From Deltaproteobacteria bacterium (GTDB taxonomy: Bacteria > Desulfobacterota > Syntrophia > Syntrophales > UBA2210), in the NCBI GenBank assembly GCA_016935935.1, contig JAFGPZ010000110.1, positions 1-6,761 of the forward strand: DNA of 6,761 nucleotides, given 5' to 3'. A model generated the notes under the pieces. The model did no database searches. It saw nothing but the letters and a program-made list of their open reading frames with translations, and was not told the DNA's origin. Positions 2 through 6,761 of the stretch are shown one piece after another; position 1 is the first letter of the stretch, and each line of letters opens with the position of its first letter. The position numbers were made by a program, and so were the translations under genes.

Positions 2-106
2 CTCTATCAAGAACAGTTCAGGGAATCAGGTCTCCGGGACATTACCGTTAAAAAATTATTCCTGGAAACGCCATTTTTTATCGCAACTGCAAAGAAAAGT
101 GTATGA
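2..106 (+). CDS. C-terminal fragment of a probable class I SAM-dependent methyltransferase (5' end outside window)
   Basis: An open frame enters from the left edge and ends at TGA 104-106, leaving 34 residues. The visible tail has a 'ESGLRDITVKKL' stretch followed by 'TPFFIATAKK'. This pattern, a glycine after a short helix, a beta strand and a final strand ending in alanine-lysine, is common at the C-terminus of class I (Rossmann-fold) methyltransferases of the UbiE/Methyltransf_11 type. The SAM-binding glycine motif lies outside the window, so the family call rests on the tail alone. It is 28 bp upstream of the first radical SAM gene and in the same direction, so it may be the preceding gene of the same operon. 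An unrelated protein with a similar last strand cannot be excluded. Confidence 0.5.
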   Translation, partial: LYQEQFRESGLRDITVKKLFLETPFFIATAKKSV

Positions 107-134: not shown

Positions 135-1247
135 ATGAGAATCAGAATATACAACCTGCATAACATGTGTGAAAATAACACCCTTTTCCTCTCCAGAGCC
201 TGGCGCTATTTCCAGCTCAACGGTCACACCGTTACGGATGAGTGGCGAGATGTTGATCTGGTATTCGTGGGTGGCTGCGCCGTAACGGATCTGATGCGCT
301 CACGGTGTGAACGGGCGATAATGAAATCCATGCGACAGATGAGGGAAGCACGCTTTGTCATCTTTGGATGCCTGGCCGCCTTTCCGGAGGGCTTCCGATC
401 CATAGAACATCAAGAAGCTGATCGTCTGAACATCATTCCGTATCAGGCAAGTCATGAACTGGACGAACTGATAAAGGCGCGAATCCCATATAAGACGGTC
501 AGTGTCAGTCAACTGAAAGGACACGTTCCCTATCAACCTTCCATGGGTCCTGACGATTTCTATGTGATGATCGCCCAGGGTTGCGTCAATGATTGCAGTT
601 ACTGCAACATAAAAAAGGCGAAAGGTAATATCAGGAGCCGAAGGGAAGAAGAGATTGAGACCGAAGTGAGGAATTTATACGGCCTTGGGGTCCGGACCAT
701 AACCCTTTTGGCAGACGACTGCGGCTCTTATGGTCTCGATCAGGGATCGGCCCTGCCGAAGTTAATTGCGCGGCTCAGCCGTATAGCGCCGGATTTGCGT
801 TACAAACTCTACACTGTTTTCCCTTTCCTCTTTCTAAAATATGCTGAAGAACTTGAGCCGTTCTTTGCCCAGCGACGGATACCATATGTGTGTCTCCCGG
901 CTCAGTCGGCAGCCCCGCGAATCCTTGACCTGATGAACCGGCGTTATGATCCATATATCCTGGAAGAGACAATCGCCCGAATAAGGTCCCTGGATCCAGG
1001 ACTCTTTGTCTACTCCCATTTCATCTTTAACTTTCCAACGGAGACCTGGGATGAATTTGAACAAAGTATTGCTTTTGCCCGGCACTTCGACCATTGTGTA
1101 TTCATCGGCTATGGCGAAAACAGCTCGACACGGGCAGCGGCAATTTTCCCGAAGTGCGGCAATCGCGCATTACAGGCCAAGGCGCAGCGCCTTGACGAAT
1201 TGGTTAAACGCAGGGAATTGGCGGCATTCGTTGTCGCCTCTCCTTAA
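135..1247 (+). CDS. Radical SAM methylthiotransferase-like protein lacking a TRAM domain (MiaB/RimO family homologue, copy 1)
   Basis: This 370-residue protein has the two-domain core of methylthiotransferases. The N-terminal UPF0004-type domain (about 1-120) keeps the three cysteines that in the family bind an auxiliary 4Fe-4S cluster: C12, C48 (in GGCAVT) and C79 (in FGCLA). The radical SAM domain has C150-C154-C157 in QGCVNDCSYCNIK, and the later PAQSAAPRILDLMNRRY segment matches the family PvQSGs-MnR signature. Known members insert sulfur and a methyl group into tRNA or ribosomal protein S12. The protein ends soon after the radical SAM barrel, where MiaB and RimO would carry a TRAM domain, so the usual substrate-recognition module is missing. 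The substrate is therefore unknown. The start at 135 is the only ATG after the in-frame stop at 123-125 that retains C12 with its normal lead-in; no good ribosome site is visible. Its paralogue lies 151 bp downstream. Confidence 0.88.
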   Translation: MRIRIYNLHNMCENNTLFLSRAWRYFQLNGHTVTDEWRDVDLVFVGGCAVTDLMRSRCERAIMKSMRQMREARFVIFGCLAAFPEGFRSIEHQEADRLNIIPYQASHELDELIKARIPYKTVSVSQLKGHVPYQPSMGPDDFYVMIAQGCVNDCSYCNIKKAKGNIRSRREEEIETEVRNLYGLGVRTITLLADDCGSYGLDQGSALPKLIARLSRIAPDLRYKLYTVFPFLFLKYAEELEPFFAQRRIPYVCLPAQSAAPRILDLMNRRYDPYILEETIARIRSLDPGLFVYSHFIFNFPTETWDEFEQSIAFARHFDHCVFIGYGENSSTRAAAIFPKCGNRALQAKAQRLDELVKRRELAAFVVASP

Positions 1248-1398
1248 CCTTTATGTCAGAATGGCCGTGGTCGGCGCCGGCGTTGAGGCAGGGAGGTTTT
1301 TCGGGAATTGCCTTACAGGATTAAATTCAAGATACTCATTAAGTATGTGAGAATAGAAATATTTTTTTGACGAAAGTCCGACAGACAAAGAGAAACCC
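1248..1398 (+). other. Intergenic gap between the two methylthiotransferase paralogues, with two weak small ORFs
   Basis: This 151-bp gap contains two overlapping short ATG frames: 1253-1324 (23 residues, beginning MSEWPWSAP) and 1261-1350 (29 residues, beginning MAVVGAGVEAG and containing one cysteine). Neither has a Shine-Dalgarno sequence, so I do not call either as a gene. A weak inverted repeat (ATACT 1332-1336 with AGTAT 1342-1346) lies before a run of seven T at 1362-1368, but about 15 bp separate them, unlike a standard terminator. Nothing else is clear here. Confidence 0.4.
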
Positions 1399-2577
1399 AT
1401 GATGTTACCACACAGACATGACAATCGGCGTGAAATGATCTTTATAATTGATCAGAGCAAGCGTTGTGAACCCAGCGCCTTCCTTTTCACCAGAGTGGTA
1501 AAGTTTCTCCTGGTGAATGGCTATAACATCACAAATGATATCGACAAGTGCGAAACGATCCTGGTGAATACCTGCTGTGTTACGGAAGACAAGATAGCCG
1601 CCTCCAGGGCGGGCCTTAATTTCGCCAGAGACCGGGGGAAGGGTAAGAGGATAATACTTTTCGGATGCATGGCCAGTCTGCCTCTTCCGAGTTTAAACCG
1701 AGAGGATCTGATCTGTATCGGTCCCAAGAATATAGATGAGCTGGATGCTCATTTCCCCCACCACAGTTCCATTAATGATATCCCGGTTAATCGATTGTTG
1801 CCGGAGCTGTATGAGCCGGGACAGGGTCTCGGGTATGGAGACTACTTTATAATGATTGCCCAGGGCTGCTCCAACAGATGTTCCTACTGCAACATCAAGC
1901 GGTCCAAGGGAGACGTAAGGAGCGAACCTTTCGAAACTATTCTCCCGCAGATACTAAGCGGTATTTCCATGGGGGTGCGGGAATTCGCCCTTTTGGCAGA
2001 CGACTGCGCGAGCTATGGGCATGATCTTGGGACTGATCTCGTGCGACTTATCGAACAGCTCTTCGCCGCAGGGCCCGATTTCAAGCTGAAGCTGGGGTAT
2101 ATTTTTCCACAATTCCTCATAGAGCACTTTGATGGATTAAAGGCGGTCTTCAGGACAGGGCGAATCAGGTATGTAAATATTCCGGTGCAGTCCGGCTCAC
2201 AAAGAATCCTCGGACTAATGAACCGCCGATACTCCATTGGCGGTGTTATGGAAGCCGTAAAGAAGTTGCGTGATATCGTAACGCAGACGATATTCTGTAC
2301 ACATATCATGCTAAACTTTCCCACAGAGTCCCATGATGACTTTCTTATGTCGCTTGCGATTGCAGATCGTTTTGACGAGGTACTCTTCCTGCATTACTCC
2401 GACAATCAGGATACAGCCGCTGCCGGAATCTTTCCCAAAGTGCCCATATTGGAAGTCCGCAGACGGCTGGACATGGCCTCAGATTATGCTAATCGATGCA
2501 AGGGCGGGCGCGGCGCTGTCATCAAAGATTTTAACTGTGACATTCCATATAACCTGACAGGAACCATCGGGAAATAA
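1399..2577 (+). CDS. Radical SAM methylthiotransferase-like protein lacking a TRAM domain (copy 2)
   Basis: This 392-residue protein is a clear paralogue of the gene at 135-1247. The N-terminal domain keeps C23, C59 (in NTCCVT) and C90 (in FGCMA) for the auxiliary cluster. The radical SAM motif is C157-C161-C164 in QGCSNRCSYCNIK, and IPVQSGSQRILGLMNRRY is the canonical methylthiotransferase signature. As in copy 1, the chain stops where a TRAM domain would begin, so tRNA or S12 modification in the usual manner is unlikely. The start is ambiguous. ATG 1399 has a weak purine-rich site at 1387-1393. ATG 1435 (MIFIIDQSKRC) reproduces the length before the first cysteine seen in copy 1 and is supported by alignment. 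C59-C60 are adjacent; by alignment C59 is the ligand position. The gene ends 3 bp before the next radical SAM gene, suggesting translational coupling. Confidence 0.88.
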   Translation: MMLPHRHDNRREMIFIIDQSKRCEPSAFLFTRVVKFLLVNGYNITNDIDKCETILVNTCCVTEDKIAASRAGLNFARDRGKGKRIILFGCMASLPLPSLNREDLICIGPKNIDELDAHFPHHSSINDIPVNRLLPELYEPGQGLGYGDYFIMIAQGCSNRCSYCNIKRSKGDVRSEPFETILPQILSGISMGVREFALLADDCASYGHDLGTDLVRLIEQLFAAGPDFKLKLGYIFPQFLIEHFDGLKAVFRTGRIRYVNIPVQSGSQRILGLMNRRYSIGGVMEAVKKLRDIVTQTIFCTHIMLNFPTESHDDFLMSLAIADRFDEVLFLHYSDNQDTAAAGIFPKVPILEVRRRLDMASDYANRCKGGRGAVIKDFNCDIPYNLTGTIGK

Positions 2578-2580
2578 GAC

Positions 2581-4119
2581 ATGCCTTTGCCTTTGATAAA
2601 AATTGTGCAGCTAACAGTGACGAATAGGTGCCAATGTAATTGTGTACATTGTGGTGTCTCAAAGCTCCGGAAAGTGATCAAGGGCGAACCAACAGTGGCA
2701 CAGATCAATTCCATGTTTCGCGACTTCAAGCTTGCCGGATGTCTGCTTGTGGATTTATTCGGGGGCGAACCTACCCTGCGCCGTGACCTGTTCGATATAA
2801 TTATACTGGCAAAATCCTATGGGTTTAGAGTGTCGTTGGAGACGAACGGATATGTTATCGATTCGGCTTACATGGAACGGCTCTGCGCGAGCGGACTTGA
2901 CCAGATTTACCTGAGCCTTGATGACTATCGGGCTGAGTACCATGACAAAACGCGACGGAAGCGTGGATGCTTCGAACGGGCTGTCCATGCCCTGGAGCTT
3001 GGAGCAAGGACGGATATACTAATGCATGTTTCAATTGTTCCCCAGACGCGTGAGTTTTTCACAAATGGGGATATGAATCGGTTTATGGAATTTGTTTTGG
3101 AGCACGGTGCGGAGAAGGTCCGTCTTTTATTGCCCCGATTTGTCGGAAGTTCCATTCGTGAGGATAGTGGCCCCATGTGTTCCGGTGTAGAGAGGGAACT
3201 CTTTTCCCATGTATCTCCCCGTTATAAAAATTTTATTTATGTGCATACCCCGGGCACGCCCCTTGGAGAGACGAATGTGTGCACAGCAAAGCAGGTTTTC
3301 TGCCATGTAATGAGTAACGGGTTGGTTGCCCCCTGCCCTTATTTCCCGCTGGTCTTTGGAAATGTAATGCGAGAGCCCATCGTTGATATCTTTGAACGAA
3401 TACATGTACATCCCCTGGTGCGACTTGGGGGCGACTATTGCCCCATGAGAAATGAGGAGTACATAGAAAGCCATATCCGGGGGCTCGGACTGGATCGACC
3501 GTTTTTCCCCATAACGGTCGAAAACCAGATTGATCTTGGTGCCCCTTGTAGGGCAGGATGCCCCGATTGTGTTCCTGGAAGCCGGCTTACTCCGAGGCCG
3601 GCACATGAAATTGTCCGGGAGCTAAGAGATGTTTCTCCAGAGTATTCCCGCATAGAGTTCTATGGAGGTGATGCATACCTGAGGCATGATCTTTTTGAGA
3701 TTCTCGACCAAGTTCCTCCGTTAAAAAAGATTACCCTATGGTCCACGTGCAGCAGAGAGCCGAAGGACCCGGCTTTCATGGAACGCTTGCGCTTTTATCC
3801 CATTGAGGCTGTCAAGGTTCACCTTCCTTTACAGTTTATGGACGACATTGCGCACCCCAATGGTAAACGCAGGCTTGGAGAGGCATTGAGGGAAATGAGT
3901 TCAAAGGGTGCCCGTAAGTATCCTATCCATCTCTATGTGCCTATGGATCGCATGGAGGAATTCCACGCTGCCTTCTCGAAAAGTGTCTACCAGTTGGGTG
4001 TGGAAAGGCTCTACACTTTTACCAGAGAACTTTACCACCCCCTGGTTAATTCCGTTGCCTGCTTCGGCAGAGAACTGGGCATTGTGAGGCTCCTGTGGGC
4101 CGAAAAGAGAAATCCGTGA
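2581..4119 (+). CDS. Radical SAM/SPASM-like protein with a second, degenerate radical SAM half
   Basis: This 512-residue protein begins with a standard radical SAM core: C17-C21-C24 in TNRCQCNCVHCG, the GGEP motif at 61-64 and ETNG at 87-90. Residues about 225-290 look like a SPASM or twitch region, with C234, C241, the NGLVAPC pattern ending at C252, and C287; such regions bind auxiliary Fe-S clusters, often in peptide-modifying enzymes. From about 311 the pattern restarts: C323-C327-C330 in APCRAGCPDC, then IEFYGGDAYLRHDLFEIL, which lines up with VDLFGGEPTLRRDLFDII of the first half. I infer an internal duplication or fusion. In the second half an aspartate sits where an aromatic residue usually precedes the last cysteine, so it may bind a cluster without SAM chemistry. 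The start is 3 bp after the preceding stop, with GGGAA at 2569-2573 as a weak ribosome site. Substrate unknown. Confidence 0.87.
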   Translation: MPLPLIKIVQLTVTNRCQCNCVHCGVSKLRKVIKGEPTVAQINSMFRDFKLAGCLLVDLFGGEPTLRRDLFDIIILAKSYGFRVSLETNGYVIDSAYMERLCASGLDQIYLSLDDYRAEYHDKTRRKRGCFERAVHALELGARTDILMHVSIVPQTREFFTNGDMNRFMEFVLEHGAEKVRLLLPRFVGSSIREDSGPMCSGVERELFSHVSPRYKNFIYVHTPGTPLGETNVCTAKQVFCHVMSNGLVAPCPYFPLVFGNVMREPIVDIFERIHVHPLVRLGGDYCPMRNEEYIESHIRGLGLDRPFFPITVENQIDLGAPCRAGCPDCVPGSRLTPRPAHEIVRELRDVSPEYSRIEFYGGDAYLRHDLFEILDQVPPLKKITLWSTCSREPKDPAFMERLRFYPIEAVKVHLPLQFMDDIAHPNGKRRLGEALREMSSKGARKYPIHLYVPMDRMEEFHAAFSKSVYQLGVERLYTFTRELYHPLVNSVACFGRELGIVRLLWAEKRNP

Positions 4120-4215
4120 GTTTATCCCGATATGACCAGGTGCTAAAAGGTGCGGAATGACGAGTTTATGAGCCGATAAATCCAGTGGCAAAACAAACCC
4201 AAGAGAGCCACCATT

Positions 4216-5451
4216 ATGAACTTTGGTAAAAATCGAGTATTGTTATTATACCCTGCAGCCGAAGCTGAGCAAGTTAGCCTCATACCGCTGTCGCTGCTGT
4301 ATGTCGCTCAGCCTCTCATCGAAGACACTTTTGATGTGGAAATCATTGATCAAAGGTTTGAAAATGACTTCTTCGCCAGTATACGTCAACGAATAGGCCC
4401 GGACCTGATCTGCATTGGAATAAGCTGTATCACGGGGCCTCAGATATTACAGGTCCTCAGAATTTCCGAATTCATCAGAAAGATGACAGATACTCCAATA
4501 GTCCTTGGAGGGCCCCATGCCACCCTTTTGCCCCATCAGACTCTCGAATCAGAAATTATCGACTATGTTGTGATCGGGAAAGGTGAAGCCCCTTTTTTAA
4601 ACCTTGTTAGAGCCCTGAAAATGAATGAATCGATTGAGGGTATTTCAAGGGTGGGGTACAAGGCAAATGGAAGGATTTTTATCAATATGGGTTCGGTTCC
4701 GGACATCAATGTTCGCAGAATACCCTATTTCCTTATTTCCAGGTATGGCAGATTTTCGACGGTTCCCATCGTCTCCTCCTATGGCTGTCGGTATAATTGT
4801 TCCTTTTGTGTAGAAAGGGTCCTCCATCCGGAATACTATGAGATCCCCATACTTGATGTCTTGTTCATGGTGGAGGATGCTTTGCGTTTAAGGCCCCGAT
4901 TTATTAACTTTATTGATGATAATTTTCTCCTAAACCAAGCAAGGGTCATGGAAATTTTTTCACTGTTTCGGCAGAATGGCCTGAATTTCCGTTGGATATG
5001 CACGGGCAGAATTGATGAGGTTATAAGCCTGGGTGATGATGCCCTTCGGTTTCTGAAGGAAAGAGGTCTATTTTCAATATATTTTGGCATAGAGTCAGGG
5101 TCCTTAAGGATATTGAAATTGATTCGTAAAGGGATAACACCGGAGATGGTTCTGAAAATAAACTCAAGACTAAAAAAGGAGGGAATTATACCACATTATA
5201 GCTTTATGGCCGGGTTCCCAACAGAAACGAAAGAAGATATCGAAAAGACGGTCAAATTCATGTATCAATTGAAACAGGAAAATCCTCAGGCCGTTATCTG
5301 GAAAATAAATACATACACTCCTTACCCGGGCACTGACTTATTCGATCTGGCCGTAAAAAATGGTTTCAAGCCTCCAGAAACACTTGGAGAATGGAGTCGT
5401 GTTCATTTTTACTCTAAAGAATATACCGCGCCTCACGATGTCTATCTTTAG
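4216..5451 (+). CDS. Cobalamin-binding-domain radical SAM protein (class B methyltransferase-like)
   Basis: This 411-residue protein has the two-part build of B12-dependent radical SAM enzymes. Residues about 6-135 form a Rossmann-type cobalamin-binding-like domain: NRVLLLYP strand, IPLSLLYVA, DLICIGIS strand, and the GGPHAT loop at 98-103 followed by VIGKGE. The DxHxxG motif that coordinates B12 in methionine synthase is absent, which is usual for this radical SAM class. The radical SAM barrel carries C191-C195-C198 in SYGCRYNCSFCVER, then FIDDNF, GIESGS at 291-296, GFPTET at 333-338 and YTPYPGTDLF near the end. Members include methyltransferases acting on unactivated carbon or phosphorus, but others do not methylate, so the reaction is open. 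A weak ribosome site (AAGAGAG, 4201-4207) lies 8 bp before the ATG. A 96-bp gap separates it from the previous gene; it is probably the last gene of the radical SAM block. Confidence 0.9.
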   Translation: MNFGKNRVLLLYPAAEAEQVSLIPLSLLYVAQPLIEDTFDVEIIDQRFENDFFASIRQRIGPDLICIGISCITGPQILQVLRISEFIRKMTDTPIVLGGPHATLLPHQTLESEIIDYVVIGKGEAPFLNLVRALKMNESIEGISRVGYKANGRIFINMGSVPDINVRRIPYFLISRYGRFSTVPIVSSYGCRYNCSFCVERVLHPEYYEIPILDVLFMVEDALRLRPRFINFIDDNFLLNQARVMEIFSLFRQNGLNFRWICTGRIDEVISLGDDALRFLKERGLFSIYFGIESGSLRILKLIRKGITPEMVLKINSRLKKEGIIPHYSFMAGFPTETKEDIEKTVKFMYQLKQENPQAVIWKINTYTPYPGTDLFDLAVKNGFKPPETLGEWSRVHFYSKEYTAPHDVYL

Positions 5452-5490
5452 AAGAGTGGCTCTTGAGGCGAATAACTGTTCGCATTTTAT
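5452..5490 (+). terminator. Two small hairpins after the B12 radical SAM gene, possible weak terminator
   Basis: Immediately after the TAG stop come AAGAG-TGG-CTCTT (5452-5464) and then GCGAAT-AACT-GTTCGC (5468-5483, one G-T pair), followed by ATTTTAT. The second stem is 6 bp with a 4-base loop. The stems are short and the T run is only four, so termination would be weak; the position at the end of a gene block is the main support. Confidence 0.3.
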
Positions 5491-5668: not shown

Positions 5669-6007
5669 ATGGCTAAGGAAACAGAAAACAAAGAAGATAA
5701 GGGGGCAGCAAGCGCCCCGGCCCAGCAGGTCGGTGGTCAGCCGAGAATTCTGTGGGACAGCAGCAATATGCGGAGCGCCTATTCAAACGTGTTTAATGTA
5801 TCCGGAGCACGTGAAGAGTTCGTAATGCTGTTTGGTATGAATCAGGCCTGGGATGCAGGCCAGAAGGAATTAAAGGTCCAGCTTTCTGATCGAATTGTCA
5901 TGAGCCCTTTTGCGGCAAAACGGTTCGCAACCCTCCTGAACAATGTTATCAAGGATTATGAAAATCGTTTTGGTGTTATCGAGATTGAGAGCCCACAGGG
6001 TGCATAA
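5669..6007 (+). CDS. DUF3467 family small protein (copy 1)
   Basis: This 112-residue protein has no signal peptide or membrane segment and is expected to be cytoplasmic. Residues 1-24 are a charged, alanine- and glutamine-rich tail that looks disordered. From about 25 the conserved DUF3467 pattern follows: AYSNVFNVSGAREEFVMLFG, a DRIVMSPFAAKR block and the ending DYENRFGVIEIE. The family is a small domain of unknown biochemical role. The next gene encodes a second copy, identical at roughly 48 of 85 aligned residues by hand count, including a 17-base identical stretch (5953-5969 and 6331-6347), so a tandem duplication is likely. The start is fixed by AAGGAGG at 5654-5660. The tail is missing from copy 2, so the two may bind different partners. 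I do not assign a function. Confidence 0.85.
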   Translation: MAKETENKEDKGAASAPAQQVGGQPRILWDSSNMRSAYSNVFNVSGAREEFVMLFGMNQAWDAGQKELKVQLSDRIVMSPFAAKRFATLLNNVIKDYENRFGVIEIESPQGA

Positions 6008-6070: not shown

Positions 6071-6400
6071 ATGACAATAGATAGAGACGGCAAAGAAATA
6101 AAACCGGATGGTTCGCAACCGAGAATAAAATGGGACGGGTCAAAGATGCGAACCACCTATGCCAATATCTTTAATGTCGCTTTGGGGAGAGAGGAGGTGG
6201 TCCTCTTTTTTGGAACAAGTCAATCTTGGGATCCAAAGCAGCAGCAAAGTAAGGTGAAGCTGATGGATCGCATAATCATGAATCCATTCGCGGCAAAGCG
6301 TCTTTCCCGTCTGATCAATAAAGTAATAACGGATTATGAAAATCGTTATGGCACTTTGGATGTTGAAGGCTCCAAACCGGAAACCTCGACCCTTCATTAG
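6071..6400 (+). CDS. DUF3467 family small protein (copy 2)
   Basis: This 109-residue protein is a paralogue of the gene just upstream. The core runs from QPRIKWDGSKM (about residue 16) through YANIFNVALGREEVVLFFG and DRIIMNPFAAKRLSRL to DYENRYGTLDVE. The N-terminal tail is shorter and lacks the alanine-rich segment of copy 1, while the C-terminus has a short polar extension (SKPETSTLH). The ribosome site is poor (AGAAGAA, 6061-6067), so it is probably made from the same transcript as copy 1 at a lower level. The 63-bp gap between the copies contains no terminator. Conservation of both copies over nearly the whole domain suggests both are functional, perhaps as a heteromer; that is inference. 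Confidence 0.83.
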   Translation: MTIDRDGKEIKPDGSQPRIKWDGSKMRTTYANIFNVALGREEVVLFFGTSQSWDPKQQQSKVKLMDRIIMNPFAAKRLSRLINKVITDYENRYGTLDVEGSKPETSTLH

Positions 6401-6459: not shown

Positions 6460-6761
6460 ATGAACAGGATTCCCCCAGATCGCGAAGAGGATAAACCTAT
6501 TCTTCAAGCGGCAGAAGGAACAACGGAAGGCGGCGACCCGGACCCGGATCGTCTCTTCTGGCGGCAGTTTGCAGAGGCCACCACACAAAACAGTTTCTGC
6601 CGGAGCTGGCTGTTCCTTCAATGCCGTTATCTAACAGGGGTGAGGTGTGCCATGCTTCTTCTGGGGCAACCGGACACAGGCCCCTACACCCCTATCGCGT
6701 TCTGGCCGGATTCCAAACTTAATATGACCCACCTGACAGGAGCGGTTGAGCGTGCCCTTAA
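6460..6761 (+). CDS. N-terminal part of an unidentified protein, possibly a GAF-containing HlyD-type export adaptor (3' end outside window)
   Basis: The frame opens at ATG 6460 and stays open for 100 codons to the window edge; an in-frame TGA at 6427 and the lack of other start codons between them fix this ATG as the first possible start. Residues 1-31 are acidic and proline-rich, with no signal peptide. From about 32 the pattern is 'LFWRQFAEAT', then 'SWLFLQCRYLTGVRCAML', then 'PYTPIAFWPD' and a helix ending 'AVERAL'. This resembles the GAF-like N-terminal region seen in some large HlyD-type (membrane fusion) proteins of diderm bacteria. I recognise this from memory of the pattern only; the lipoyl/HlyD part would lie outside the window. 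It lies 59 bp after DUF3467 copy 2 and could be cotranscribed with it. No clear ribosome site is present. Confidence 0.5.
   Translation, partial: MNRIPPDREEDKPILQAAEGTTEGGDPDPDRLFWRQFAEATTQNSFCRSWLFLQCRYLTGVRCAMLLLGQPDTGPYTPIAFWPDSKLNMTHLTGAVERAL

Follow-up and report, generated by a model that had tools for sequence, protein, structure and literature searches.

The window analyzed here, namely the whole stretch of 6,761 nucleotides from contig JAFGPZ010000110.1 of a Deltaproteobacteria bacterium, carries eight genes or gene parts, all on the forward strand. Four consecutive genes lying between positions 135 and 5451, called A, B, C, and D below, encode radical SAM enzymes: their open reading frames (ORFs) and the Pfam Radical_SAM domain found in all four products (E 2e-16, 7e-18, 7e-26, and 5e-23, respectively, with two stretches in C) confirm the original prediction made from the letters alone. 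The classes then assigned to them (two methylthiotransferase-like enzymes, one SPASM-like double enzyme, and one B12-type enzyme) agree with the domain matches given below, and the probable methyltransferase placed directly before them was also recovered: the 34-residue C-terminus of an O-methyltransferase (OMT) encoded by the 3' end of a gene at positions 2..103 outscored every one of 500 shuffles when compared with each of the nine O-methyltransferase C-termini taken from related loci. As to the CxxxCxxC motifs, which were said to number four, every gene does have one, but the total is five (nucleotides 582, 1867, 2629, 3547, and 4786) because C carries one per half. When each protein was shuffled 20,000 times, at least one motif arose by chance in 0.05-1.5% of the shuffles, and two arose in C in 0.01%. 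The gaps A-B, B-C, and C-D measure 151, 3, and 96 bases, and none of the four products reaches a curated NCBIfam cut-off. We regard these products as dedicated tailoring enzymes rather than housekeeping ones, and the enzyme set is apparently rare and undescribed.

The four radical SAM enzymes

Genes A (135..1247, 370 amino acids) and B (1399..2577, 392 amino acids) encode MiaB/RimO-like enzymes, B showing 34% identity to A over 340 residues. UPF0004, the N-terminal domain of methylthiotransferases in Pfam, scores above the cut-off in B (34.9 vs. 27) and slightly below it in A (25.1). The TRAM domain, an RNA-binding domain, is absent from both proteins (Pfam, E up to 1). Their TIGR00089 scores are 167 (A) and 183 bits (B) as against a cut-off of 251, the match of A ending at 362 of 429; among the A and B types of nine genomes, the matches stop at 341-362 of 429, apart from one which stops at 321. 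The N-terminal cysteines 12, 48, and 79 of A and its radical SAM cysteines 150, 154, and 157 are invariant in nine out of nine relatives. In the case of B, cysteines 23, 59, and 90 along with 157, 161, and 164 are invariant in 104 out of 104 homologs, this alignment consisting of the homologs of at least 370 amino acids among the 120 matches listed of 190, the B of the window included. To judge from these sequences, A and B look like protein modifiers of the RimO type devoid of an RNA-binding domain.

Gene C (2581..4119, 512 amino acids) encodes a twin radical SAM protein, in which a radical SAM and SPASM-like half is followed by a second radical SAM half; the SPASM match is slightly below the Pfam cut-off (20.7 vs. 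21.5). In an alignment of 35 of the 208 matches, both CxxxCxxC motifs are conserved in all 35 sequences, as are Cys 17, 21, 24, 234, 252, 287, 323, 327, 330, and 494, while Cys 241 is present in 34. Apart from the window's own entry, 77 database proteins (P0002-P0078) show 54-85% identity to C over 81-100% of its length. A B-type methylthiotransferase is fused to C in three proteins (P0084, P0089, and P0090), which are 40-43% identical to B and 32-35% to A, and genome G010 has a further B-C fusion, truncated where its contig stops. In a comparison between a C list of 78 entries (the window's own included) and a B list of 109, the longest contig was of equal size in the B list for 36 of the 78 C entries and, when only contigs of at least 3 kb are counted, for 35 of 66, which suggests, without proving it, that C and B share contigs. 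An antiviral viperin was considered for C and rejected: the pVip match (63 bits) covers the radical SAM core only, and scores as high as 106 bits were obtained with other families of radical SAM enzymes. Nor does a phage or plasmid cassette seem to be involved, C being unmatched at 1e-30 in 72,556 plasmid and 50,697 phage records; viral contigs gave 21 partial matches with 22-38% identity.

Gene D (4216..5451, 411 amino acids) encodes a B12-binding radical SAM enzyme resembling PhpK, HpnJ, and BchE. It holds both domains of the B12-dependent radical SAM methylases (B12-binding, Pfam E 3e-18, and radical SAM) and may perform a methylation. A D relative of 53% identity was found beside B-C-A in G004 and one of 27% in G007, and none was found near the module genes in the examined stretches of G001, G002, G003, G422, and G451. 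The OMT relative in G004 belongs to Methyltransf_2 (PF00891 with a dimerisation domain), and this enzyme type resembles FlxJ and BchU.

Partner genes and their distribution in related genomes

The relatives (genomes numbered with G, the stretches examined with L) are mostly fragmentary metagenome-assembled genomes. In a GTDB scan, ORFs were compared at 43 loci, ten of which were judged (L001-L007, L019, L021, and L022) and seven of these (L001-L007) taken as family members; the remaining 33 gave weaker, mostly partial matches. C is full-length in L001-L004; L005 and L006 have just its first half and L007 has divergent copies, and genome searches added G422 and G451. It is rare: C occurs in two of the 395 genomes of a phylum sample centered on G003 and containing both this genome and the previously known G002, in 3/155 and 3/141 genomes of two orders, and in 3/76 of a family, the same genomes recurring. 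A and B types are present in all nine genomes with C (A only in G002) and in neither of the two without C, as judged by the TIGR00089 search. The kept core consists of C together with A and/or B, D being optional. The four-gene tailoring pathway originally proposed holds as a conserved, unassigned tailoring locus, but the four genes are neither a fixed set nor self-contained, being one layer of a larger module accompanied by an exporter, as seen in relatives beyond the window. Homologs scattered without any shared gene order were not encountered in the case of A, B, and C, and only partly in that of D, and no gene for a precursor peptide was found in the relatives.

The genes recurring around C in the relatives are OMT, R5 (a radical SAM protein of about 310 amino acids), X289 (about 290 amino acids, without a Pfam domain), and EA, in which DUF3467 is followed by a second domain without any Pfam assignment. 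Structure prediction gives X289 and the second domain of EA the ABBA/PT-barrel fold of the prenyltransferases, with ten strands in alpha-beta-beta-alpha repeats, and the two families contain invariant Lys, Arg, and Tyr residues, which are candidates for diphosphate binding. A database search gave 1,113 relatives for X289; among the 120 that were listed, none has a Pfam domain. No profile similarity was detected between EA and X289, or between EA and the prenyltransferase-like protein of G006, to both of which EA is linked by the predicted fold only; this PatF-like protein is a prenyltransferase relative at the sequence level, slightly below the cut-off.

The EA-type and prenyltransferase-like proteins occur in various settings. 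In G006 (L082:5535-8305), B and C are followed by the PatF-like protein and by a protein of 639 amino acids that shows three Fer4_12 stretches and matches radical SAM weakly. In G001 (L001:15513-19527) and G004 (L004:10414-14557), the EA-type domain forms the C-terminus of a protein of 1,024-1,108 amino acids, the N-terminal part of which we take, on the basis of its motifs, to be a peptidase-U32/UbiU-like barrel, and another radical SAM gene lies upstream. G135 (L089:5484-7520) has a protein of 678 amino acids with DUF3467 and then apparently two tandem EA-type domains. In G212 (L102:13344-15170), the gene next to the SecA-like one, on its downstream side, encodes an EA-type protein that also matches DUF3467, and X289 and C were not found in this genome in the sample search; a prenyltransferase fold seems to be attached here to a bare exporter.

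X289 was identified in 9 of 11 genomes (G001-G007, G422, and G451), all of which carry C or a C half, and thus in nine of the ten with a C-type sequence; it was not found in G009, which has a weak C match only, or in G010, where the B-C fusion lies at the contig end. G135 and G396 have X289 but no C match at E 1e-60. EA-type sequences are present in G001-G005, G422, and G451, while R5 was not seen in the examined stretches of G005. In the phylum sample, the association between X289 and the exporter described below gives P = 1.4e-3 when G003 is left out. The most nearly complete row is that of G451, where a giant protein, EA, R5, X289, A, B, C, OMT, a DUF3467 gene (E), a GAF-HlyD protein (HG), an M50-HlyD protein (MH), a SecA-like protein, and HlyD follow each other, and the order in the window, OMT-A-B-C-D-E-F-HG, resembles this plan. 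In G003 and G422, A, B, and C are on one contig and R5, X289, EA, OMT, E, and HG on another; since both contigs exceed 300 kb in G422, the two gene sets are kept together there without being adjacent. The module composed of the A-D set, R5, X289, EA, and OMT is very probably real. The Marinamargulisbacteria genome G007 carries R5-X289-A-C (L081:3618-8058) and, on another contig, C-C-A-D (L084:3-5395), with three divergent C copies.

No precursor-peptide gene was recognized among 667 ORFs of 25-159 amino acids located outside the called genes in the 18 stretches compared: these ORFs share only segments of a kinase region and two matches of 15-18 residues at E 0.006-0.009. A short ORF shared between OMT and C/X289 resembled a precursor but was rejected as such, as it overlies a P-loop kinase gene, mostly in antisense. 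This kinase is encoded between module genes at L057:14001-14630 and L061 ~15860-16220, with related DNA at L062 ~3400-4720 and L078 ~14370-15095. It is PRK/uridine kinase-like according to Pfam in G451 only, at the cut-off, neither of two other kinase-region ORFs tried giving a Pfam match, and the P-loop was recognized by eye in G002. The kinase might supply a phosphorylated donor.

Export system and giant proteins

Downstream of D, the window contains a possible terminator hairpin (5468..5483, forward strand, from a pattern scan only, which found 12 such sites in the window vs. a mean of 6.3 in shuffles), then the DUF3467 genes E (5669..6007, PF11950 E 2e-23) and F (6071..6400, PF11950 E 4e-20), the products of which are 57% identical over 86 residues, and lastly G (6460..6761), the start of an HG gene cut by the window end. 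G was assigned by comparison with the GAF-HlyD proteins of export loci, to which it is 27-59% identical over 52-74 residues; the fragment itself has no Pfam match, and two full-length relatives carry HlyD and GAF matches. This start and the two DUF3467 genes are the only part of the exporter locus visible in the window. Besides HG and MH, the exporter genes near the module in relatives encode a SecA-like protein of short length and a small HlyD, joined at some loci by an outer-membrane channel. DUF3467 is present in G002, G003, and G009 and was not found in G001, G004-G008, and G010; its comparison with the PDB sequences gave only five chance antibody matches.

MH occurs in 10 of 12 genomes, namely in eight of the nine with C, in G396, and as a fragment in G010, and was found neither in G007 nor in G135; in the phylum sample, it was detected in 20 genomes at 1e-60, ten of them below 1e-250. 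PqqD matches the N-terminus of one MH protein weakly (E 0.011, 16.4 bits vs. a cut-off of 23.4). The order in L101, L103, L104, and L107 is giant protein, DUF3467, HG, MH, and SecA-like protein, and that in L102 is giant protein, DUF3467, MH, SecA-like protein, and EA-type protein. L105 and L110 have an LEPR-bearing protein after the SecA-like one, L106 and L108 (G006) have neither a giant protein nor DUF3467, and L109 begins at a contig end within the G003 system; DUF3467 occurs in six of the ten MH stretches L101-L110. The giant proteins, as sized from coordinates with frames matching across adjacent stretches, have about 5,650 (G342), 9,780 (G261), 10,550 (G371), and 10,790 (G422) amino acids, and at least 14,950 in G002, where the start was not reached. 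All six whose start was reached begin with an LEPR-XLL-like signal: LEPR-XLL exceeds its cut-off in G422, and the motif reads LEPR in G342, G394, and G396, LESR in G371, and LEKR in G261, the signal itself having helped to recognize the proteins of G394 and G396. The tail of the G002 giant protein is similar to those of the giant proteins of G371, G212, G261, and G217 (E 2.6e-11 to 1.3e-5). On contig C1 of G002 (95002-139866), a single open frame, at least 44.8 kb long as its start was not reached, precedes a DUF3467 pair and the exporter. A giant protein adjoins the exporter or the module in G002, G003, G422, and G451, and is represented in G001 by a repeat fragment of 1,800 residues.

Possible substrate and comparison with known systems

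The genes can be viewed as three layers: an export system presumably serving giant LEPR-XLL-type exoproteins, on which the EA, X289, R5, and OMT module would have been built, and a putative outermost layer, confined to a smaller number of genomes, in which C is joined by A and/or B and sometimes by D. The middle layer can be divided further, some exporters having EA alone and others also R5, X289, and OMT. This nesting suggests that enzyme sets were added onto the exporter, so that its cargo would be the simplest common target. From the gene order, co-occurrence, motifs, and predicted folds observed, we infer that the giant protein might be the substrate of the module, and we propose tentatively, at somewhat less than even probability, that A-D form a tailoring cassette acting on it in the manner of those of ribosomally synthesized and post-translationally modified peptides (RiPPs). 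Cytoplasmic enzymes would then modify residues of the protein before its export: X289 and EA may add prenyl groups, A and B may add methylthio groups (or sulfur) at C-H positions, as RimO does on the ribosomal protein S12, C may perform one or two more radical steps, and D and OMT would carry out methylation and O-methylation, respectively. DUF3467, where present, might serve as an adaptor joining the EA enzyme and the cargo or exporter, and the M50-HlyD, SecA-like, and HlyD/OEP proteins would then cleave and export the product.

Several observations weigh against this giant-protein substrate. No feature of the giant proteins marks the systems bearing A, B, and C, their tails looking similar whether or not the module is present. 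The examined stretches of G004-G007 showed no giant protein. DUF3467 is found in none of five C-type genomes (G001, G004, G005, G006, and G007), and the adaptor role would therefore not be general; the DUF3467 part of EA has a predicted local distance difference test (pLDDT) score below 50 in the predicted structure. EA-type sequences are missing from G006 and G007, in the examined stretches of which OMT was not seen either; the exporter of G006 is on another contig, and none was found in G007. Despite its B-C fusion at a contig end, G010 gave no X289 match, and the X289 genome G135 has no M50-HlyD match. As regards the window, the presence of EA, R5, X289, and a giant protein nearby is a prediction rather than an observation. 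Lastly, the type of OMT and the AmbP/EpzP-like fold matches would suit a small aromatic product equally well.

The main rival explanation is indeed that the module makes a small prenylated, methylated, and perhaps methylthiolated metabolite or a short peptide, the adjacency of the exporter being a matter of convenience, or HlyD/OEP exporting the metabolite. The likeness of OMT to small-molecule enzymes, the presence of the small-molecule prenyltransferases AmbP3, FamD1, and EpzP among the best fold matches of X289, the occurrence of R5-X289-A/B-C in stretches of G006 and G007 without exporter genes, and the lack of a giant protein in those of G004-G007 make this a serious possibility, almost as likely as the giant-protein substrate. 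Against it, no conserved precursor ORF was found in cis, EA neighbors genes of the exporter or of a giant protein in G002, G003, G005, G135, G396, G422, and G451, and the EA-type protein of G212 directly follows a SecA-like gene in a genome where X289 was not found. That E and F are themselves the substrates or carriers of the radical SAM enzymes is very unlikely: they come directly after D, are paired in the window as in G002, and DUF3467 is fused to EA in G002 and G003, as it is to the EA-type proteins of G135 and G212, but the same five C-type genomes have no DUF3467 match, DUF3467 also occurs in export loci without these enzymes, and no alignment column separates the 7 sequences of systems with A, B, and C from 8 others. 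Least likely of all is that A and B act as normal methylthiotransferases of tRNA or ribosomal proteins, the four genes having come to lie together by chance. Both enzymes do belong to the MiaB/RimO superfamily, but this housekeeping role is disfavored by the whole-genome count of canonical TIGR00089 enzymes above the cut-off, three in each of 11 genomes (four in G451) besides any A/B types, as well as by the absence of TRAM, the scores below the family cut-off, the fusion with C, and the recurring gene order.

Literature searches, which left subscription journals largely uncovered and are thus weak evidence of absence, yielded nothing on the module. The unassigned radical SAM group gains a genomic context, the X289 family gains a predicted fold, and DUF3467 is linked, in part of the genomes, to the export system of LEPR-XLL-type giant proteins. 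If the giant protein is the substrate, post-translational modification by radical and prenyl chemistry would reach beyond short peptides to the largest proteins of bacteria. This would be the first case of giant exoproteins matured in such a manner, and A and B would be, to our knowledge, the first protein-directed methylthiotransferases besides RimO. More generally, it is possible but rather doubtful that radical SAM, methylthiotransferase-like, and prenyltransferase-fold enzymes form a RiPP-like set by which bacteria modify exported proteins that are many thousands of residues long.

Each component has known counterparts. A and B share with MiaB, RimO, and MtaB (TIGR00089) the UPF0004-type N-terminus, the three conserved cysteines, and the radical SAM core, and differ from them in lacking TRAM, in scoring below the cut-off, in being encoded beside C, and in having an extra conserved cysteine, at position 196 of A and 203 of B, within the radical SAM domain. 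The first half of C resembles the radical SAM/SPASM maturases (AhbD, NirJ, mycofactocin, PqqE, and GeoRSP), whereas C has a second radical SAM half and scores far below the cut-off of every one of these families; this second half weakly matches YydG (E 5e-6), the epimerase of epipeptide (YydFGHIJ) maturation. X289 and the second domain of EA have the same predicted fold as the cyanobactin-type peptide prenyltransferases (PatF, LimF, KgpF, and PagF) and DMATS, from which the present system differs by the fusion of EA to DUF3467 in several genomes and by the short precursor gene, which was not found. The N-terminal signal is shared with the LEPR-XLL giant proteins (NF012209), of which NCBIfam names the signal only, and the literature covered by our searches gave no account of their exporter or tailoring enzymes. 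The M50-HlyD protein of G001 resembles the HExxH protease of daptide maturation (156 bits, cut-off 300) and YydH/LiaK (35 bits, cut-off 225), both matches being below the cut-off, and the system proposed here would differ from these in having a giant protein instead of a short peptide as its cargo.
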